Assembly: GCA_022833215.1 (NCBI GenBank)
Contig: JAIPUZ010000111.1
Coordinates: forward strand, 1 to 64,000
Direction of reading: 5' to 3'
Source of the DNA: Mesorhizobium sp.
Lineage (GTDB): Bacteria; Pseudomonadota; Alphaproteobacteria; Rhizobiales; Rhizobiaceae
DNA: 64,000 bases
Notes under the pieces: generated by a model
What the model was told of the DNA's origin: nothing
What the model saw: only the letters and a program-made list of their open reading frames with translations
The model's database searches: none
Translations under genes and position numbers: made by a program
Part shown: piece after piece, positions 5,250 to 60,559 of the stretch
Numbering within the stretch: position 1 is the first letter of the stretch
Layout of the letters: every line of letters begins with the position of its first letter

Positions 5250-5568
5250 GGGTCCTGCTCCCGTATTGGACGCGCAATTCTCTCACGCGATCCAAGTGTG
5301 AAACGATGTCCACGCCGCCCGCCTCCGAGCGGACGTGGTATTCCTCGGTTACCCGAATGATCGTTTCGACCACATTTGGGAAGCAGCCGCAACAGCGACC
5401 CCGCTTCTTCATATAATGATAGACCTTCGCCGGAACGATCAGTTGCCACGGATCGCTATCCAGCAAATCGATGATCGCCCTTTCGATCTCCTTTTCGGTG
5501 ATGATGTTGCAGTGGCAGATCAGCATGTCTTTTTCGGCCTGGCTGAGCGGCGCTTTCCGCGCCGCCAT
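5215..5568 (-). CDS. bfd: bacterioferritin-associated ferredoxin-like (2Fe-2S) protein
   Basis: The protein has the BFD-type cysteine pattern: CHC near residues 18-20, then about 30 residues, then CCGC ([10 protein letters not shown]), which binds a [2Fe-2S] cluster. Bfd proteins bind the bacterioferritin heme and deliver electrons that release stored iron. At 117 residues it is much longer than the usual 60-75; roughly 50 extra residues follow the last cysteine ([14 protein letters not shown] onward), and the end overlaps bfr by 35 bases in another frame. The true start may be the methionine at residue 15 (5526), since neither site has a clear ribosome-binding site. The imelysin stop is 26 bases upstream. 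Confidence 0.88.
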
Positions 5569-5594
5569 GGCTGGAAGAAAGGGGTTGTCTATCC

Positions 5595-6899
5595 TTACTG
5601 GAAGACCTTGTCCGGCGCGTCGAGGCTGTCGGAGCCTTCGAAGGCGATGGCGTCGAGCTTCAGCGCGGTGACGACGCGCTCGATCGACTTCGTCTGGTCG
5701 ACCAGCGCATCGATGGCGGCCTGCACGGTGGCGTTGCCCTCCGTGTTACCTTCGCCGATCTGCTGGTCATAAGCCTCTCCGGCTTCGGCCCGGGCGGCGA
5801 TGGCTTCCATTTTCGCGACAGTGGCATCCAGCTTGCCGGTCAGTTCGGTGTCGAGCGCCGGATCGGTTTCCCTGACCAGACCGGACAGCGACGGGCCTTC
5901 CACGGTTGAGCCGTCGACGCGCTTGTAGCTGCCCAGATAGGCTTCGCGGATGCCGACGGCATCGTAGAGATGCGAGATATGGGTGTTGTCGGAGAAGCAG
6001 TCATGCTCCTCTTCGGGGTCGTGCAACAGCAGGCCGAGCTTCATGCGTTCGCCGGCAAGCTCGCCATAGGAGAGGGAGCCCATGCCGGTGAGGATGACCG
6101 ACAGGCCGCTGTTAGCGTCGCCGTCTTCCAGCGCCTTGCGCGCCTCGCCGCCATCCTTCCAGTTGTCGACCATTTCCTGGAGGTCGGCGACCAGCAGGGT
6201 GGAGGCGGACTTCAGGTATTCGGCGCGGCGCTCGCAATTGCCGCCGGTGCAGTTGGCCTTGTCGTAGTCGGTGTAGGGACGCACGCCGGCGCCCGGGCCC
6301 GTGCCGTTGAGGTCCTGGCCCCACAGCAGGAATTCGATGGCATGATAGCCGGTGGCCACATTGGCCTCGATGTCGCCGGCCTCCTGCAGGGTGCCGGACA
6401 GAAACTCGGGCGTCAGGCTGGAGGCGTCTATCTCCTGGCCGTCGATCTCGATCTTCGTGTTGGCGATGACATTGGCCGTATACAGGCTGTTTTCGTCGGA
6501 TTCGGTGCCGTAGCCGGCGTCGACATAGTCGATCAGGCCCTCGTCCAGCGGCCAGGCATTCACGCGGCCCTCCCAGTCGTCGACGATAGCGTTGCCGAAA
6601 CGGTAGACCTCGGTCTGCTGGTAGGGAACGCGCGATGCCTTCCATGCCGCCCTGGCGGCGTCGAGCGTCTCGGCGGAAGGATTGGCGATCAGCGCGTCGA
6701 TGGCCACGTCCAGAGCCTTTGCCGTGCTCAGCGAATCCTCGTATTTTGCAAGGGCGATGTCAGCATAGGTCGCGATGACGGCTTTCGCATCCGTCTCCGC
6801 CTTGGCCGGAAGCACGAAAATGGCCGCAGTCAACGCCGCGGTGGCGCCGATCGCCGCCATTCTGGCCATGTAGCGGGTCGAGACCCAGCTTCTGATCAT
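5595..6899 (-). CDS. imelysin family periplasmic iron-regulated protein (IrpA-like)
   Basis: First gene of the iron operon. I start it at 6899 because GAGGAG lies nine bases upstream; starts further upstream lack a well-spaced site. The protein (434 residues) has a signal peptide ending in LPAKAE and an imelysin domain with FGNAIVDDWEGRVNAWPLDE and the GYHAIEFLLWGQD segment, which carries the GxHxxE metal-binding signature intact. A short cysteine pair (CTGGNCERR) and a C-terminal LDAP segment fit IrpA-type proteins. These are periplasmic, iron-repressed and implicated in iron uptake. The ICE box and a sigma-70-like promoter lie upstream. Confidence 0.93.
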   Translation of the reverse strand: MIRSWVSTRYMARMAAIGATAALTAAIFVLPAKAETDAKAVIATYADIALAKYEDSLSTAKALDVAIDALIANPSAETLDAARAAWKASRVPYQQTEVYRFGNAIVDDWEGRVNAWPLDEGLIDYVDAGYGTESDENSLYTANVIANTKIEIDGQEIDASSLTPEFLSGTLQEAGDIEANVATGYHAIEFLLWGQDLNGTGPGAGVRPYTDYDKANCTGGNCERRAEYLKSASTLLVADLQEMVDNWKDGGEARKALEDGDANSGLSVILTGMGSLSYGELAGERMKLGLLLHDPEEEHDCFSDNTHISHLYDAVGIREAYLGSYKRVDGSTVEGPSLSGLVRETDPALDTELTGKLDATVAKMEAIAARAEAGEAYDQQIGEGNTEGNATVQAAIDALVDQTKSIERVVTALKLDAIAFEGSDSLDAPDKVFQ

Positions 6900-52016: not shown

Positions 52017-53078
52017 TCACAGGCGCACCGCCTTGCCGGTGCGCACGCTTTCGTCGGCGGCGAGGCAGACGGCCAGCGATTTCACGGCGTCGTCCATGTG
52101 GCGGGTGAGGTCGATGTCCTCGCGTATCGCCTTCAGCACGAACGCCTGCTCGAGGTCGCACAGGTCCTGATGACCGGGTTCGCCCTGCATGGACAGCATC
52201 CGGTCCTCCTGCGCGAAGCGTCCGTCCGGGCCGGTGGCGGCGCTGTGCAGTCGAATGGTCGAGGTCTTGGTGTGGGTGTCGATGTCGTCCGATTTCGCAC
52301 CTTCAGCCATGACGATCGACACGCAGCCATTGGGCGAGATCACGTCCTTTACGAAGAAGGCGGTCTCGGAAATCATCGGCCCCCAGCCGGCCTCGTACCA
52401 GCCGACCGAACCGTCTTCGAACAGCACCTGTAGATGGCCGTAATTGTACATGGCCGGATCGATCTCGTCGGAAAGGCGCAGGCCCATGCCGCGCACTTCC
52501 ACCGGCCTGGCATCGGTGATCTGGCACATCACGTCCAGATAATGCACGCCGCAATCGACGATGGGCGAGGTCGTCTTCATCAGCTGCCTGTGCGTTTCCC
52601 ATGTCGGGCCGGAAGATTGCTGGTTCAGGTTCATGCGAAACACGTAGGGACCGCCGAGCTTGCGTGCCTCTGCGATCAGTTGCATCCATGAAGGATGGTG
52701 GCGCAATATGTAGCCGATCACCAGCTTACGGCCATTGGCCTTTGCCGCATCCACCACGCGCTGTGCATCCGCCACGGTCGTTGCCAGCGGCTTTTCCACG
52801 AACACATGGCAGCCGGCCTCCAGCGCCTGTACCGCGTAGTCGGCATGGCTGTCGGAATAGGTGGCGATGCAGGCGAGGTCCGGCTTTTCGTCCGCCAGCG
52901 CTTCCGTGAAGGAGCGCCGGATCGGATGGCCTTTGAGCGACTCCGGCAGCTCGACGTCCGAGCGGTTGACGAGTGCTGCGATCTCGAAGCCCGGGTTGGT
53001 CGCATAGGCCAGCGCATGGCTGCGGCCCATATTGCCGAGCCCGGCGACGACGACGCGTATCGGTTTGTCTGAACTCAC
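52017..53078 (-). CDS. Gfo/Idh/MocA family oxidoreductase
   Basis: A 353-residue NAD(P)-dependent sugar dehydrogenase. Rossmann motif [13 protein letters not shown], the [14 protein letters not shown] stretch and the catalytic EKPLA motif ([16 protein letters not shown]) are complete, followed by the C-terminal GFO_IDH_MocA_C domain with [14 protein letters not shown]. The GTG start (53078) overlaps the permease stop (GTGA), so it is coupled to the transporter. It probably oxidises the imported sugar or a derivative; which one cannot be told. Confidence 0.92.
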
Positions 53079-53914
53079 TTGACGGCTCCGGAGGTGATGC
53101 CGCGGATCAGTTGCCGCGAGAAGATGAGGTAGAGGACGAGCACCGGCAGGATCGCCAGCGAAAGGGCTGCCAGCACCGCGTTCCAGTTGGTGACGTACTG
53201 GCCGATGAACATCTGCGCGCCGAGCGTGACGGTCTTGGTCGCCTCGGACGGCGCGAGGATCAGCGGGAACCACAGATCGTTCCAGATCGGGATCATGGTG
53301 AACACCGCGACCGTCGCCATGGCCGGCCGCACCAGCGGCAGCACAAGCCTGAAGAAGATGCGGTATTCCGAAAGCCCGTCGATGCGCCCGGCATTCTTGA
53401 GGTCGTCGGAAACGCCGCTCATGAATTCCGTCAGGATGAAAACGGCGAGCGGCAGGCCCTGCGCCGTGTAGACGAGGATCAGCGCCGTCAGCGTGTTCAC
53501 CAGTCCGGAGGCCACCATCATCTGCAATATGGCGACGGTTCCGAGGCGGATCGGGATCATGATGCCCAGCGCCAGATAAAGCCCCATCAGCCGGTTGCCG
53601 CGGAAGCGGTACTCCGACAGCGCGAAAGCGGCCATCGCCCCGAACAGCAGCACGAAGAACAGCGACGCCACCGTGACGATGAAGCTGTTCTGGAAATAGG
53701 TGAGGAAATCGCCCTGCGTCAGCACCATGCGATAGCCGACGAGGTCGAAGGTTTCCGGCGTCGGCGGCATCATCGGCGCGCCGAAGATCGATCTGCGGGT
53801 CTTGAACGAGTTGATGAGGATCACGAACACCGGAAACAGCGCGATCACCGTGTAGGAGATCAGGATCGCGTGGGCGGCGACCGAGCGGGGCAGCGAGGCG
53901 GTGGCGCGGTTCAT
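53075..53914 (-). CDS. carbohydrate ABC transporter permease (MalG/UgpE type)
   Basis: A 279-residue inner-membrane permease with six helices. It opens with AHAILISYTVIALFPVFVIL and the NSFKT motif typical of the MalG branch (LINSFKTRRSIFGAP), and its EAA loop reads DDLKNAGRIDGLSEYRIFFRL. It ends in [13 protein letters not shown]. It lies 10 bases after the partner permease gene and overlaps the dehydrogenase gene by four bases. Confidence 0.94.
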   Translation of the reverse strand: MNRATASLPRSVAAHAILISYTVIALFPVFVILINSFKTRRSIFGAPMMPPTPETFDLVGYRMVLTQGDFLTYFQNSFIVTVASLFFVLLFGAMAAFALSEYRFRGNRLMGLYLALGIMIPIRLGTVAILQMMVASGLVNTLTALILVYTAQGLPLAVFILTEFMSGVSDDLKNAGRIDGLSEYRIFFRLVLPLVRPAMATVAVFTMIPIWNDLWFPLILAPSEATKTVTLGAQMFIGQYVTNWNAVLAALSLAILPVLVLYLIFSRQLIRGITSGAVK

Positions 53915-53924
53915 CGTCTTCGCC

Positions 53925-54857
53925 TCAGAACTGGTAGCGGCGCAGCCGCGTCTGGATGAGGAACAGATAAAGGCACACGCCGGTCAGGATGATGAGGAAC
54001 ATCATGGTGGCGATTGCCGCGCCCATGTTGCGGTCGCCCACCTGAAGCTGGAAGCCGAAGAAAGCGCGGTAGAGGAAGGTGCCGAGAATGTCGGTCGAGT
54101 AGTTGGGGCCGGCCAGCGCGCCCTGAGCCGAGTAGATGAGGTCGAAGGCATTGAAATTGGCCACGAAGGTCAGCACGGAAATGATGCCGATGGACGGCAG
54201 GATCAACGGCAGCTTGATCTTCCAGAACTGCGCCATGCCGGTCACGCCGTCGCATTCGGCCGCCTCGATCACCTCATCGGGAATGGAGAGCAGCGCGGCA
54301 TAGATCAGCATCATGGGAATGCCGACGAACTGCCACACCGAGATCAGGCTGAGTGCGGTGAGCGCATATTCCTCCTTGCCGAGCCACGGTGTGAACAGGC
54401 TTTTCAGGCCGACGAGGTCGAGCAGGTTCGGCGCGACGCCCCAGATCGGCGACAGGATCAGCTTCCATGCGAAGCCGACGATGACGAAGGACAGGATCGT
54501 CGGAATGAAGATGGCGGTCCGGTAAAAGGAAGAGAGGCGCAGTTTCGGGCTGGAAAGCAGCGCCGCCAGCAATATGCCGATCGGGTTCTGGACCAGCATG
54601 TGGATGATGAAGAACCAGACATTGTTCCACAGCGCGTTCCAGAAGCCCCTCGACCAGTTCGGGTCGCCGAACAGCGTGCGGAAGTTGTCGAGCCCCACGA
54701 AGGTCTGGCCGCCGGAAACATTCCGGAACAGCGAGAACTGCAATGTGCCGAACAGCGGCACGATCATGATCGCCGTGTAGACCAGAACAGCCGGAGCCAG
54801 GAACACGATGATGTGCCAGCGGAAGGGCTTTCTCGGTTTCGCGTCACTGGCCGTCAT
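53925..54857 (-). CDS. carbohydrate ABC transporter permease (MalF/UgpA type)
   Basis: A 310-residue permease. Six helices begin at HIIVFLAPAVLVYTAIMIVP, followed by the LFRNVSGGQTFVGLDNFRTL loop of the MalF branch and the EAA loop DEVIEAAECDGVTGMAQFWK. It forms the membrane channel with the MalG-type partner. It lies 141 bases after the binding-protein gene, with a strong hairpin in the gap. Confidence 0.94.
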   Translation of the reverse strand: MTASDAKPRKPFRWHIIVFLAPAVLVYTAIMIVPLFGTLQFSLFRNVSGGQTFVGLDNFRTLFGDPNWSRGFWNALWNNVWFFIIHMLVQNPIGILLAALLSSPKLRLSSFYRTAIFIPTILSFVIVGFAWKLILSPIWGVAPNLLDLVGLKSLFTPWLGKEEYALTALSLISVWQFVGIPMMLIYAALLSIPDEVIEAAECDGVTGMAQFWKIKLPLILPSIGIISVLTFVANFNAFDLIYSAQGALAGPNYSTDILGTFLYRAFFGFQLQVGDRNMGAAIATMMFLIILTGVCLYLFLIQTRLRRYQF

Positions 54858-54998: not shown

Positions 54999-56252
54999 TC
55001 ATTCGGCCGGCTTGTACCAGCTGTCGAGACCGGCTTGCAGCTTCTTGGCCGCATCTTCCGGGCTCACCGTGCCGTTGATCACGTTGGCGGATTCCACCCA
55101 GGTTTCGTTTTCGAGATTGGGCGTGCCGCGCGACAGGATCTGGTAGGTCGAGCGGATGGTTGACTTGCACTTGTCGCGCCACGAGACGAACTCCTGCGCC
55201 AGCGGATCTTCCATCTTCACCGGGGTCGAGTTCAGGCTGAAGAAGCCGGGCAGGGCGTTGGCATAGATCTCGGCGAATTCCGGCGAAGCCACCCAGGTGA
55301 GGAAGGTCTTCGCGGCTTCCGGGTTCTTGGAAGCAGCGTTCATGCCGATGCCGATATCGGTGTGGTCGGAAATGTAGCAGGCGTCGCCGGCCGCCTTGAC
55401 CGGGGGCGGGAAGGCGCCCATCTCGAAGTCGACCTGCGTGTTGAACACCGAAATCTCCCACGAGCCGGCCGGGAAGATGGCGGCGCGGCCGAGCGTGAAC
55501 AGGTTCTGGCTGTCGGGGTAGGTCTGCGCCTCGAAGCCATCGCCGAGATAGGGCTTCCACTTCGCCAGCGTGGCGAAGGGCTCCACCCATTGCGGGTCGG
55601 TCAGCTTCTGCTCGCCCTTGATGAGCGCCAGACGGCCTTCCTCGCCATGCCAGTAGTTGGGGCCGATGTTCTGGTAGCCCATGGTGGCGGCTTCCCACAG
55701 GTCCTTGGTGCCCATGGCCATGGGAATGTAGTTGCCGTCTTCCTTGATCTTGTCGAGGGCGGCGAAGAATTCGTCCTCGGTCGCCGGCGGCTCAATGCCG
55801 AGCTCCCTGAAGGCGTCCTTGTTGTAGATGAAGCCGTGGATCACCGAGGCCATCGGCACGCAGAAGGTCTGCTTGCCGTCGTCGGTGGTCCAGGCGGATT
55901 TGGCCACGTCGGAGAAGTTTTCGATGCCGGAAAGATCGGTCAGATCGGCGAGCTTGCCGTTCTTGAACAGGTCGAGCGAGGCGTCGAACGGGCGGCAGGT
56001 GATGATGTCGCCGGCCGAACCGGCGTCGAGCTTGGCGTTGAGGGCGGCATTGTATTCGGTCGGGGCCGAAGGCGAGAACACCACCTTGATATCGGGGTGG
56101 GCGGCCTGGAAGGCGGGGATGAGCTTCTCCTGCCAGATGGCGAGGTCGTCATTGCGCCAGCTTTCGATGGTGAGCGTGGCTTCCTGCGCATGGGCGGCCG
56201 AGCACAGAAGGCTCGATCCCAGAAGCGCTGCGGTGAAGAGTTTCATGTTCAT
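54999..56252 (-). CDS. sugar ABC transporter substrate-binding protein (family 1)
   Basis: A 417-residue periplasmic protein with a signal peptide ending SAAHAQ. SBP_bac_1 features are IPAFQAAHPDIKVVFSPSAP, YNAALNAKLDAGSAGDIITC and GDACYISDHTDIGIGMNAAS. First gene of the transporter operon; GGGAG lies seven bases before the ATG. Together with the divergent NagA/SIS/kinase operon it probably imports N-acetylglucosamine, chitobiose or a related amino sugar (inference from context). Confidence 0.93.
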   Translation of the reverse strand: MNMKLFTAALLGSSLLCSAAHAQEATLTIESWRNDDLAIWQEKLIPAFQAAHPDIKVVFSPSAPTEYNAALNAKLDAGSAGDIITCRPFDASLDLFKNGKLADLTDLSGIENFSDVAKSAWTTDDGKQTFCVPMASVIHGFIYNKDAFRELGIEPPATEDEFFAALDKIKEDGNYIPMAMGTKDLWEAATMGYQNIGPNYWHGEEGRLALIKGEQKLTDPQWVEPFATLAKWKPYLGDGFEAQTYPDSQNLFTLGRAAIFPAGSWEISVFNTQVDFEMGAFPPPVKAAGDACYISDHTDIGIGMNAASKNPEAAKTFLTWVASPEFAEIYANALPGFFSLNSTPVKMEDPLAQEFVSWRDKCKSTIRSTYQILSRGTPNLENETWVESANVINGTVSPEDAAKKLQAGLDSWYKPAE

Positions 56253-56526
56253 GCTCGGTCTCCCTGTTGGGCCTTTTCAGGCCGGTTGTGTCGAATGAAG
56301 CTGCGCATACGGGCGGCGGCGCGCCGGGCTGCGGAAGCCCTGCCTGAACGCTTTCCCGATTATGGACAGGTGCGCGGCCATCGGAAAGCGGGTTTCCGGC
56401 TGGCTTCGACTGGCGTGTTGGAAAAGGATGCGGGCTTGCGGCTGCCGCAGATGTTTGCGGAAGCCGGCTGTCCGGTGCGCAATCTTGCTGCGGATATCCA
56501 TCGCTCCCCTCGTTCTCCTGATTGAA

Positions 56527-56554
56527 ACAATACCAAAAAAATACCACTTGTCCA
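56527..56554 (-). promoter_or_regulatory. promoter and operator of the amino-sugar transporter operon
   Basis: On the minus strand, TGGACA (56549-56554), a 16-base spacer and TATTGT (56527-56532). Two direct copies of TGGTATT, four bases apart (plus-strand AATACCA at 56529-56535 and 56540-56546), fill the spacer and run into the -10. This mirrors the promoter at 56665-56692. The leader to the binding-protein start would be about 270 bases and holds no gene. Confidence 0.65.
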
Positions 56555-56664
56555 CGCTTATTAACCTTTTGCTGGCGGGCAAGCGGATGCGGCATGAAAA
56601 TCTCTTGTATTTTAACAAAATTGCTCGTTCTGCTGCCGCTGCGTTATGCCGTCAAAATTAACAC

Positions 56665-56692
56665 TTGGATATTGGTATTTAAGTGGTATTAT
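56665..56692 (+). promoter_or_regulatory. promoter and operator of the kinase-gntR-SIS-nagA operon
   Basis: TTGGAT (56665-56670), a 16-base spacer and TATTAT (56687-56692). Two direct copies of TGGTATT (56673-56679 and 56684-56690) with a four-base gap occupy the spacer and -10, so a bound repressor would block polymerase. Transcription should start near 56699, right at the GGAGGG (56700-56705) that serves the GTG start at 56712. Confidence 0.68.
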
Positions 56693-56711: not shown

Positions 56712-57596
56712 GTGGATTTCATACTCGGCATAGATGGCGGCGGAACCGGTTGCAGGGCGGCGCTCGCCACCCCTGACGGACAGGTGCTGGCGCGCGGCAG
56801 TTCGGGAGCGGCCAACATCCGTACCGACCTGACCAGCGCCCGCGGTCATATCGTCGAGGCGGCGCAGCGGGCCTTTATCGCGGCCGGCAAGGATTCCGCG
56901 CTGATCGTGCACACTCCGGCCGTGCTCGGGCTCGCCGGCGCCAATGTCGGCACCTATCGCCAGCAGTTGCAGGCCATCCTGCCGTTCCGGGAAAGCCGGG
57001 TGGAAAGCGATGCCGAGATCGCGCTGGAAGGCGCGATCGGTGGCGGCGACGGCGCGATTGCGGTGCTGGGCACCGGCAGCGCCTACCGGGTGCGCCGCAA
57101 CGGCGTTTCGCGCCCTGTCGGCGGATGGGGTTTTCAGGTGGGCGATCAGGCAAGCGGCGCGCGCATCGGTCGCGACCTGCTGGAACAGACGCTGCTTGCC
57201 TATGACGGCATATGCGAAGCCTCCGCCCTGACGCGCGAGATCATGGCCGTGTTCCGCGACAATCCCGAGGATGTGGTCGAATTCACCGTGGCGGCAAAGC
57301 CGGGCGACTATGGCGGTTTCGCGCCCAAGGTCTTCGACCATGCCGCGCGGGGCGATGCGGTGGCGCGCCGTATCGTCGACAAGGCGGTGGCCGATGTGGA
57401 CGGATCGCTTGGAGCGTTGCGGCTCGGCGAAGGTGACGTGCTTTGCCTTCTGGGCGGGCTGGCAAGTCTCTACGCGCCCTTGCTTGCGCCGCGCTACCGG
57501 GCCTTGCTGCGTGAGCCGCAGGGCGATGCGCTGGCCGGAGCGGTGCGCATGGCTGCCCGATATTTCGGCCATGCGGGCGGGACCGGCAATGGCTGA
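56712..57596 (+). CDS. BadF/BadG/BcrA/BcrD-type N-acetylglucosamine kinase
   Basis: A 294-residue ASKHA-fold kinase. The phosphate-1 motif is ILGIDGGGTGCRAALA, followed by LGLAGANVG, VLGTGSAYRVRR (phosphate-2 region) and GGWGFQVGDQASGARIGRDL. This group phosphorylates N-acetylglucosamine or glucosamine with ATP. I place the start at the GTG 56712, six bases after GGAGGG. First gene of the amino-sugar catabolic operon; its end overlaps the gntR start by eight bases. Confidence 0.9.
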   Translation: MDFILGIDGGGTGCRAALATPDGQVLARGSSGAANIRTDLTSARGHIVEAAQRAFIAAGKDSALIVHTPAVLGLAGANVGTYRQQLQAILPFRESRVESDAEIALEGAIGGGDGAIAVLGTGSAYRVRRNGVSRPVGGWGFQVGDQASGARIGRDLLEQTLLAYDGICEASALTREIMAVFRDNPEDVVEFTVAAKPGDYGGFAPKVFDHAARGDAVARRIVDKAVADVDGSLGALRLGEGDVLCLLGGLASLYAPLLAPRYRALLREPQGDALAGAVRMAARYFGHAGGTGNG

Positions 57597-58374
57597 GGAT
57601 GCCGACAATCTGTTTGCGGGGATCAGGGAGACGGCACGGGGTCAGCCGCTTTACCTGCATCTGCGCCGGACCATCGAGGAAGCCGTCGGGAACGGCCTGC
57701 TGGGGCCGGGCGACGCGCTGCCCTCCGAGCGCGACATAGCCGTTCAGGCGGATATTTCGCGTGTGACCGTGCGCAAGGCGGTGCGCGATCTGGTCGGGAG
57801 CGGGGTGCTGGTGCAGCGCCACGGCTCAGGCACGTTCGTGGCCCCGCGCGTCGAGCGTGTCGAACAGTCGCTGTCGCGGCTCACCTCTTTCACCGAGGAC
57901 ATGGCAAGGCGCGGCAAGGCCGTGACGTCGCAATGGCTGGACCGGGGCGTGTTCACCCCCTCGCCGGACGAGATGATGGTGCTCGGCCTGTCGGCCCGGG
58001 AACTGGTGGTGCGCATGGCGCGCCTGCGCATGGCCGACGGAACGCCGCTTGCCATCGAGCGTGCCTGCGTGTCGGCCAGCATGCTGCCCGAACCGGAGCT
58101 CATCGGCGCTTCGCTCTACGCTGCGCTGGGCAAGGCGGGCTATCGTCCGGTACGGGCCGTGCAGCGCATTTCGGCTGCCAACCTCACCGGTCAGGATGCG
58201 GAGCTGCTGAAGGTTGCGGCTGGCGCAGCCGGCTTGAGCATCGAACGCATCTCCTATCTTGCCAGCGGCAGGGTGGTGGAATTCACCCGCTCGGTCTATC
58301 GGGGCGATGCCTATGATTTCGTGGCCGAGTTGCGCCTGAGCGGGCCCGGCGATGACAGTGGAGGAAGTGCATGA
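57589..58374 (+). CDS. GntR family regulator, HutC subfamily
   Basis: A 261-residue repressor with an N-terminal winged helix (about 20-85, QPLYLHLRRTIEEAVGNGLL, then LPSERDIAVQADISRVTVRK) and a C-terminal UTRA ligand-binding domain (LTSFTEDMARRGKAVTSQWL). NagR/DasR/PhnF-like members sense amino-sugar phosphates. Embedded in the operon between the kinase and SIS genes, with overlaps on both sides. It is the likely binder of the TGGTATT repeats at 56529-56546 and 56673-56690. Confidence 0.92.
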   Translation: MAEDADNLFAGIRETARGQPLYLHLRRTIEEAVGNGLLGPGDALPSERDIAVQADISRVTVRKAVRDLVGSGVLVQRHGSGTFVAPRVERVEQSLSRLTSFTEDMARRGKAVTSQWLDRGVFTPSPDEMMVLGLSARELVVRMARLRMADGTPLAIERACVSASMLPEPELIGASLYAALGKAGYRPVRAVQRISAANLTGQDAELLKVAAGAAGLSIERISYLASGRVVEFTRSVYRGDAYDFVAELRLSGPGDDSGGSA

Positions 58375-59402
58375 CGACGGCCGCAACCCATATGCGAACC
58401 GAGATCGAGGAGATACCGCAGGCCGTCGCCCGCTTCCTCGACCGGTCGGACAGTTTGCTTGAGGATGTCGCGCAGGATTTACGCCGCCGTGCGCCGGGCT
58501 TCGTCGTTACCGTGGCGCGCGGTTCGTCCGCCCATGCCGCGACATATCTGAAATATGCGGTGGAACTGACGGCCGGACTCGCGGTGGCGCCGATCGGACC
58601 GTCCGTTGCCTCGATCTATGGGGCAAAGCTGCGCCTCGATCGCGCGGCGTGCCTGGCCGTGTCGCAGTCCGGCAAGAGCCCGGACATCGTGGCTCTGGCG
58701 CAAAGCGCGGCGGAGCAGGGGGCGGTCACGATTGCCCTCACCAACACGGCCGGCTCGCCGCTGGCCGGCGTTTGCGACCACGCCATCGACATCATGGCCG
58801 GACCGGAGCGGAGCGTCGCCGCCACCAAGACCTTCGTCAACTCGGCTGTGGCCGGGCTGGCGCTGATGGCGCACTCCACCCGGGACGAAACGCTTCTGGC
58901 GGCGCTCCAGCAGCTGCCGCAGTCGCTGGAGCGGGCGCTCGCCTGCGACTGGAGCGCGCTGATCGAGCCGTTCGGCAGGCAGGGTTCGCTGTTCATTCTC
59001 GGGCGCGGCCCATCGAGCGCCATGGCCAGCGAGGCAGCGCTGAAGTTCAAGGAAACCTGCGGCGTTCATGCCGAAGCCTATAGTGCGGCAGAGGTCATGC
59101 ATGGCCCGATGGCGCTGGTCGGCCCGGGCTTTCCGGTGCTGGCGCTCGCCGCGCGTGACGCGGCCGAGCCGTCGCTGGTCGAGGCCGTCGATGCGCTGGC
59201 GGACAAGCAGGCCGCCGCCTTCGCGACCAGCGACCGTGTGGCGAAGGCCGCGCGGCTGCCGTTCGCGGCCACCGGCCACCCGCTGACCGATCCGCTGCCG
59301 CTGATCGTGTCCTTCTATGCATTCGTCGAGGCTTTCGCCCGGCACAGGGGCCTCAATCCCGACACGCCCCGCAATCTGCGCAAGGTAACGGAGACGATAT
59401 GA
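58371..59402 (+). CDS. SIS-domain glucosamine-6-phosphate deaminase/isomerase (NagB-II type)
   Basis: A 343-residue protein with two sugar-isomerase domains resembling the isomerase half of GlmS without the glutaminase half. Visible are VARGSSAHAATYLKYAVEL, SQSGKSPDIVALAQSAAEQG, RSVAATKTFVNSAV and the KFKETCGVHAEAYSAAEVMH catalytic region. NagB-II proteins convert glucosamine-6-phosphate to fructose-6-phosphate and ammonia. It is coupled by ATGA overlaps to gntR and nagA, completing a GlcNAc-6-P to Fru-6-P pathway. Confidence 0.93.
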   Translation: MTTAATHMRTEIEEIPQAVARFLDRSDSLLEDVAQDLRRRAPGFVVTVARGSSAHAATYLKYAVELTAGLAVAPIGPSVASIYGAKLRLDRAACLAVSQSGKSPDIVALAQSAAEQGAVTIALTNTAGSPLAGVCDHAIDIMAGPERSVAATKTFVNSAVAGLALMAHSTRDETLLAALQQLPQSLERALACDWSALIEPFGRQGSLFILGRGPSSAMASEAALKFKETCGVHAEAYSAAEVMHGPMALVGPGFPVLALAARDAAEPSLVEAVDALADKQAAAFATSDRVAKAARLPFAATGHPLTDPLPLIVSFYAFVEAFARHRGLNPDTPRNLRKVTETI

Positions 59403-60559
59403 GCGAGCGTTTCGCCCTTTCGGGGGCCAGGATTTTCGATGGCGAAACCTGGCATGACGACGCGGCTCTGGTCGTGGCCCACGGCACGATAGAGGCCATT
59501 GTGCCGGCTGTTTCCATCCCCGCCGGCGTGAAACGGGTCGAGGCCGGTGGCGCCGTGCTGGCGCCCGGTTTCATCGACCTTCAGGTCAATGGCGGTGGCG
59601 GGGTGATGCTCAATGATCATCCCGACCTCGCCTCCATCGAAACCATCTGTTCTGCTCATCTGCCGTTCGGCACCACGGCGCTGCTGCCCACCCTGATCAC
59701 CGATACGCCGCGGATCACCGCGGCGGCGCTAGACGCGGGCAGGCAGGCGGCCGCGAAGAATGTTCCCGGTTTCCTCGGCCTGCATCTGGAGGGTCCGCAT
59801 CTGTCGCTGGCCCGCAAGGGCGCGCACGATCCGGAACTGATCCGCAGGATGGACGACGCCGATCTGAAGGCGCTGGCGGCGGCAGTCGGCGCCATGCCGG
59901 TGCTTCTGACAACGATCGCACCGGAATCGGTCAGCCCCGAACAGGTGGAGGCGCTGGCAAAGGCCGGCGTCATTGTAAGCCTCGGCCATTCCGACGCCTC
60001 CTATGCGACGGCAACCGCCTATGCGGAAGCCGGCGCGAACATGGCCACGCACCTCTTCAACGCGATGAGCCCGCTGGGCAGCCGGGAGCCGGGGCTCGCC
60101 GGCGCGGCCATCGATACCGGCACCTTGTTCGCCGGCCTGATCGCGGACGGCATCCATGTCGATCCGGCCACCATGGCGATTGCGCTCAGGGCCAAGCGCG
60201 GTCCGGCGAGAATTTTCCTCGTCACCGACGCGATGGCGACGATCGGCACGCACATGTCCTCTTTCACGCTGAACGGGCGCACCGTCTATCGCAGGGAAGG
60301 CAGCCTGCGGCTTGGCGACGGAACGCTGGCCGGTGCCGATCTCGACATGATCTCGGCCGTGCGCTTCATGCACCGCACCATCGGTCTTGAACTCGGCGAG
60401 GCCCTGCGCATGGCCTCGACCTACCCGGCGCAGGCGGTCGGGCAGTCGCAGCGTCTCGGGCGGCTGACGAAAGGCATGCGCGCCAACATCGTCGCCCTCT
60501 CGGACGACCTCGACGTGGCCTCCGTATGGATCGACGGCGTGCGCTCGTTCAAGGCCTGA
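59399..60559 (+). CDS. nagA: N-acetylglucosamine-6-phosphate deacetylase
   Basis: A 386-residue amidohydrolase-superfamily enzyme that removes acetate from GlcNAc-6-P. Metal and catalytic residues sit in LGLHLEGPHLSLARKGAHD, VSLGHSDASYATA, MATHLFNAMSPLGSREPG and LVTDAMATIG. It opens with the barrel-flanking FALSGARIFDGETW. Last gene of the operon. It provides the step between the kinase and the NagB-II-type enzyme. Tandem short repeats begin at its stop codon. Confidence 0.95.
   Translation: MSERFALSGARIFDGETWHDDAALVVAHGTIEAIVPAVSIPAGVKRVEAGGAVLAPGFIDLQVNGGGGVMLNDHPDLASIETICSAHLPFGTTALLPTLITDTPRITAAALDAGRQAAAKNVPGFLGLHLEGPHLSLARKGAHDPELIRRMDDADLKALAAAVGAMPVLLTTIAPESVSPEQVEALAKAGVIVSLGHSDASYATATAYAEAGANMATHLFNAMSPLGSREPGLAGAAIDTGTLFAGLIADGIHVDPATMAIALRAKRGPARIFLVTDAMATIGTHMSSFTLNGRTVYRREGSLRLGDGTLAGADLDMISAVRFMHRTIGLELGEALRMASTYPAQAVGQSQRLGRLTKGMRANIVALSDDLDVASVWIDGVRSFKA

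Follow-up and report, generated by a model that had tools for sequence, protein, structure and literature searches.

In the window (the whole stretch of DNA analysed, 64 kb), genes for the transport and for the catabolism of amino sugars diverge from a control region in which the direct repeat TGGTATT-N4-TGGTATT occurs twice, in mirror orientation and with a start-to-start distance of 144 bases, each site being placed between the -35 and -10 elements of a promoter (Table 1). The preliminary description of this region had reported two exact repeats in opposite orientation, N16 promoters and a separation of about 144 bases, all of which are borne out by the sequence and by our scans. Its reading of the sites as direct repeats rather than palindromes, with one-turn phasing within each site, and its placement of the operators beside the operon's own GntR gene likewise agree with the sequence.

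Table 1. Features of the divergent amino-sugar control region and its flanking genes, in positions of the window
Feature	Position	Strand	Evidence
Leftward (transporter) operator, TGGTATT-TTTT-TGGTATT, TGGTATTTTTTTGGTATT	56529..56546	-	Exact match; conserved in relatives
Rightward (nagK-gntR-nagB-nagA) operator, TGGTATT-TAAG-TGGTATT, TGGTATTTAAGTGGTATT	56673..56690	+	Exact match; conserved in relatives
Leftward promoter, TGGACA-N16-TATTGT, overlaps its own operator	56527..56554	-	Consensus scan, 9/12
Rightward promoter, TTGGAT-N16-TATTAT, overlaps its own operator	56665..56692	+	Read by eye
Inter-operator spacer	56547..56672	.	Poorly conserved in relatives outside the -35 regions; length quantised
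BadF/BcrA-type kinase, N-acetylglucosamine kinase-like (nagK)	56712..57596	+	NF046058 at 170 bits, below its cutoff of 370; PF01869 above cutoff
GntR/HutC (UTRA) regulator, NagQ-type	57589..58374	+	PF00392 and PF07702 above cutoffs
SIS-domain glucosamine-6-phosphate deaminase-like (nagB-II)	58371..59402	+	NF046059 at 283 bits, below its cutoff of 430
N-acetylglucosamine-6-phosphate deacetylase (nagA)	59399..60559	+	TIGR00221 above cutoff
Sugar ABC transporter substrate-binding protein	54999..56252	-	Family search; permeases follow at 53925-54857 and 53075-53914

The rightward operon has the composition of a NagQ regulon: a regulator with a GntR N-terminal domain and a UTRA (HutC) effector domain, a TGGTATT direct-repeat operator upstream of the regulated genes, and linked GlcNAc genes, of which the kinase and the deaminase match their families below the equivalog cutoffs. 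The regulator is a GntR/UTRA protein and not the ROK-family repressor of a NagC system, and among the 25 NCBIfam matches listed none is named NagQ. Its best solved relatives (2wv0, 4u0v, 9i0v, 4zs8; E 5.7e-35 to 3.2e-34) are YvoA/NagR of B. subtilis and DasR of Streptomyces, whose operators are palindromic, whereas those found here are direct repeats. Among the best 80 of 541 relatives, the named one that comes closest is Aquamicrobium defluvii (97% for the regulator). A search for Rfam elements between 52000 and 61000 returned none at E up to 1. Downstream of the leftward operator, the interval 56253-56528 holds a 74-aa ORF (56277-56501, minus strand) without NCBIfam matches; in 14 of the 22 loci inspected, the first ORF in this place encodes a SIS-domain protein, which is absent here and in L009. 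At L010 (3911-4819, minus strand) family search identifies this ORF as N-acetylmuramic acid 6-phosphate etherase (MurQ), and the L010 protein had no match in the window's genome in a search run without a positive control.

At up to three mismatches the window contains just these two sites, each with no mismatch at all. Shuffled windows gave a mean of 0.72 matches at this threshold and two or more in 18 of 100 cases, so it is the exactness of the two sites, and not their number, that goes beyond chance. The genome (4.55 Mb in 131 contigs) has eight matches at up to two mismatches, and the only exact ones are the window's pair; of the six inexact matches, contig C96 has three, close to a paralogous GntR gene, and C60 and C63 account for two more. 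The remaining one, on C128, was considered as a further regulon site and rejected as a chance match; by eye the ORFs there are prophage-like (terminase, DNA methylase).

The rightward promoter was missed by the consensus scan, its -35 element matching TTGACA at only 3 of 6 positions. Both -35 elements nevertheless look real, as judged from the sequences of relatives, because 154 of 165 loci have TTG no more than 9 bases upstream of the plus-strand site, and 152 of 165 have GACAA immediately upstream of the minus-strand one. A column profile of 97 representatives (chosen so that less than 15% of spacer 7-mers are shared) also has CTTGG conserved at the rightward promoter.

In those same representatives the two halves of either site point in one direction, and the inverted repeat TGGT...ACCA of a palindromic HutC-type operator is not seen. 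The preliminary description had taken such direct repeats for a new recognition mode; Yang 2006 (JBC 281:29872) is reportedly the primary source on the corresponding motif, that of NagQ. According to the available passages of Suvorova (2015, PMC4494728), NagQ is a HutC-subfamily GntR regulator of N-acetylglucosamine use that recognizes direct repeats of TGGTATT, an arrangement counted there as an exception to the HutC palindrome with reference to Yang et al. 2006. The available part of Leyn (2016, PMC5343134) calls the motif a tandem repeat and assigns NagQ to alpha- and betaproteobacteria as well as to some gammaproteobacteria. A new recognition mode is rejected on the strength of these two publications (PMC4494728, PMC5343134), and we predict that both sites are ordinary NagQ operators, here in a phased divergent pair. 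The locus shares with the published regulon the TGGTATT direct repeats, the control of nagA and nagB and an alphaproteobacterial host, and differs from it in the fixed N4, the mirror-image pair and the helical quantization of distance, which go unmentioned in the available text of PMC4494728 and PMC5343134. We found no earlier description of a phased divergent NagQ pair in searches of an open-licence library, in which NagQ and DNA looping occur together only in PMC4494728, the looping passage visible there being concerned with MocR-type regulators. It is this phased pair, the operators themselves being ordinary, that is worth following.

Loss of the repeats from genomes that keep the operon, which had been named in advance as grounds for giving up the interpretation, was not observed: among the best 80 of 541 confirmed relatives, many of them Mesorhizobium, 78 loci keep the N4 site at no more than one mismatch. 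The N4 sites in this sample number 103 without a mismatch, 49 with one and 10 with two, and any other spacing between the two copies (0 to 15 bases) yields at most 5 loci when one mismatch is allowed. The two loci without an N4 site, L012 and L015, have less than 1 kb of sequence before the regulator gene. A wider set comprised 200 loci (numbered from L009 on, L119 and L120 left out), with a GntR gene in 199 and at least 50% identity in 189, and the mirror pair is present at up to five mismatches in 169 of these 189. Among the remaining 20 are loci that are cut off and paralogs at a greater distance, with possibly a few real losses, for which L160 is a candidate; in L027 the left site has a poly-A spacer one base shorter. 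Outside the order, a relative at E up to 1e-45 was found in 14 genomes (190 searched, the window's own included). Of these 14 loci, 13 carry one or more direct-repeat sites with no more than two mismatches, but a mirror pair whose sites are over 100 bp apart, with four mismatches allowed, is seen only in L253. The distant mirror pair is thus not universal, NagQ relatives beyond the order being mostly without it.

Although the middle of the spacer is hardly conserved in sequence, the distance between the two sites is quantized. The best divergent pair of each locus was used, ties being settled in favor of the inner pair, and distances were reconstructed on a FastTree tree of the regulator, a single protein without bootstrap, for 165 loci (regulator at least 48% identical and longer than 150 residues, pair at up to four mismatches); some loci look like one species from two collections, such as L048 and L098 with their identical printed spacer. 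In 60 of the 97 representatives the distance is 133-137, followed by classes at about 145, 124, 112 and 101. The 37 distances outside 133-137 are best fitted by a period of 10.75-10.85 bp, with a phase score that was reached by none of 20,000 jittered sets. The same held (0 of 20,000) when nine further nag loci were added, exceptions included (L241, L242, L188, L159, L245-L247, and L191 and L197, whose distances of 200 and 198 rest on pairs with six mismatches), and with distinct integer distances only, the score was reached by 66 of 20,000 sets.

The tree of 165 loci requires 59 changes of distance: 36 involve 1-2 bp, three involve 3 bp, another three 4-7 bp and 14 involve 8-13 bp, and the last three measure 15, 23 and 42 bp, other cost settings moving single changes between these size classes. 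Between 13 and 21 of 20,000 jittered sets, depending on cost setting, attained the phase score on the tree at 10.5-11 bp. No more than a quarter turn separates 158 of the 165 loci from a 10.75-bp ladder, the period and phase of which were fitted to the same data from related loci. Those lying farther off are L128 (119), L166 and L189 (130), L137 and L174 (131), L138 (139) and L202 (141), the last having a regulator just 49% identical. Four loci not in the tree miss the ladder too: L159 (106), with a decayed site, and L245-L247 (141-143), where identity in the regulator is about 55%. The window's own distance, 144, falls some 1.4 bp below the value that one full turn added to the main class would give. 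Among the matches listed from another search (154 of 394 genomes matched), 30 further loci, 20 of them from genomes new to the analysis, all have distances of 134-136 or 144-146, and when distances of about 150-210 were searched for, 8 of 297 genomes matched, with nag loci L241 and L242 among the matches. As a control, the leader length from the plus-strand site to the first glycine-rich kinase motif was followed in 133 loci: it has 42 changes, 7 of them of at least 3 bp, without periodicity, and this control is weak because leaders hardly vary.

From the sites, their overlap with the promoters, the gene context, the conservation and the quantized spacing, all of which are direct observations, we arrive at the following picture, which we consider probable as a whole. 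The GntR/HutC protein of the rightward operon would bind each 18-bp direct repeat as a NagQ-type operator, with one DNA-binding domain per TGGTATT copy on the same face of the helix, and the bound regulator would cover the stretch from -35 to -10 and so keep RNA polymerase off both promoters. The two mirror-oriented complexes, 144 bp apart, would most likely contact each other by looping out the intervening DNA, and this contact would shut the amino-sugar transporter and the catabolic operon together until an amino-sugar phosphate from the pathway, probably GlcNAc-6-P as general knowledge of such systems suggests, releases the repressors. Looping had already been suggested in the preliminary description, and the sequence lends it support: two operators, one predicted repressor and a spacing that follows helical phase in the evolutionary test, seven loci aside, are what a repression loop calls for. 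A quantized distance across dissimilar spacers is to be expected if two bound repressors touch through a loop, and because the distance follows a helical rule, loop contact is the best single explanation.

Such an arrangement has counterparts. The title of Plumbridge and Kolb 1993 is said to concern a NagC loop between nagE and nagB. In E. coli the nagE and nagB operators are bound cooperatively by NagC through DNA looping, as stated in an excerpt of PMC5401889, and the two systems have the same layout, a pair of operators for a single repressor lying between divergent GlcNAc operons; NagC, however, is a ROK protein with other operators, whereas the regulator here is of the GntR/HutC type and its loop is a predicted one. 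E. coli NanR, a GntR-type repressor listed in a passage of PMC4494728 among the exceptions of the FadR or HutC subfamilies, binds its (GGTATA)3 operator cooperatively as three dimers on three tandem repeats, the dimers being joined by a 32-residue N-terminal extension, according to the available text of PMC8012715. On that account, cooperative binding by a GntR repressor is possible on repeats with an almost identical core (GGTATA there, GGTATT here), although NanR has three tandem repeats at one place, whereas our locus has two sites far apart, each with two copies.

It is also conceivable, though we think it unlikely, that the two sites are independent NagQ operators, each blocking its own promoter without contact between them, and that their spacing reflects shared ancestry and chance. 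Each site alone does sit where its own promoter would be blocked, a passage of PMC4494728 describes a group of HutC divergons whose sites each act on their own operon, and under the most permissive null, in which changes of 4-13 bp are equally likely, the clustering of steps is significant at only p = 0.046 (14 of 17). However, in separate parts of the tree the steps group around whole turns, and the fitted period equals the helical repeat of DNA across spacers that are dissimilar in sequence. That steps of about 11 bp are an artefact, 11-bp repeat units having been gained or lost and a different pair of copies then chosen by the scan, we regard as very improbable: five Mesorhizobium loci (L025, L031, L034, L035, L039) do carry a third unit in register and are counted as 146 with ties, but the inner pair was used on ties for the tree, and the -35 letters abut the sites in most loci of the stepped classes as well (14 of 16 on the left and 14 of 16 on the right at distances of 144-147, 10 of 17 and 16 of 17 at 122-126, against 111 of 114 on either side at 133-137; of the four loci at 93-102, only one shows the usual -35 on the right). 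It is therefore mostly the spacer between the promoters that has changed, and not the choice of repeat units.

The phase constraint might instead serve the promoters, if an IHF-type bend or upstream contacts of polymerase had to present back-to-back promoters on a fixed face, which we hold to be improbable. In the 97 representatives the promoter-operator blocks are highly conserved and the middle hardly, with a weak A/T preference upstream of each -35, and the spacers are enriched in WATCAANNNNTTR, which we take to be the IHF consensus: at up to one mismatch it is found in 36 of 97 spacers versus 16.3 in dinucleotide shuffles (sd 3.6, maximum 23), and exactly in 7 versus 0.97. At the one-mismatch threshold, nine control patterns (reversed, permuted or re-spaced) fell within the shuffle range in eight cases and slightly above it in one (23 versus a maximum of 20). 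An IHF-like site on the plus strand lies 50-54 bases before the plus-strand operator in 20 of 97 representatives, and in the other 77, 21 of 78 two-mismatch matches fall in the six positions from -55 to -50. The window, however, has no IHF-like site at this fixed place (best 4 mismatches), its two one-mismatch matches lying elsewhere, 114 and 14 bases before the plus-strand operator, as chance often gives; the 13 representatives named Devosia have at least three mismatches there, and yet the window and the Devosia loci keep the spacing or step it. Where the site is present, IHF would be its presumptive ligand, and since such a bend would also help a repressor loop, bend and loop may act together. 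Exact matches occur 51-54 bases before the plus-strand operator in L073, L162, L177, L185 and L192, among others, and the register of the IHF-like site to this operator is kept in the 20 representatives while the total distance varies.

Returning to the repressor loop, a broader statement, whose chances of being right we judge to be about even, would be that a GntR repressor of Rhizobiales controls divergent amino-sugar operons via a short, helically phased loop, which an IHF bend at a fixed place helps to form in many lineages; that this is the counterpart of the NagC loop, built with a different protein; and that the loop evolves in length by whole turns as its spacer sequence turns over. 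If true, many genera would hold a natural record of evolution tuning a repressor loop, with the same operators, dissimilar spacer sequences and lengths changed mostly in whole turns, helical phasing could be tested from sequence alone, and two unrelated repressors, NagC and NagQ, would have reached the same layout for the same pathway.

The third TGGTATT unit of the five Mesorhizobium loci lies at the leftward operator in an 11-base register and is reminiscent of the three-repeat NanR operator as presented in the available text of PMC8012715. At L119, on contig C96, a GntR-UTRA-type paralog of 47% identity (5283-6065, minus strand) neighbors genes for an N-acetylmannosamine-6-P epimerase, a ROK kinase and an ABC transporter. 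Degenerate TGGTATT-like copies with an 11-base period lie upstream of it, at about 6075-6103, and because of these the sister regulator may use a similar direct-repeat code.
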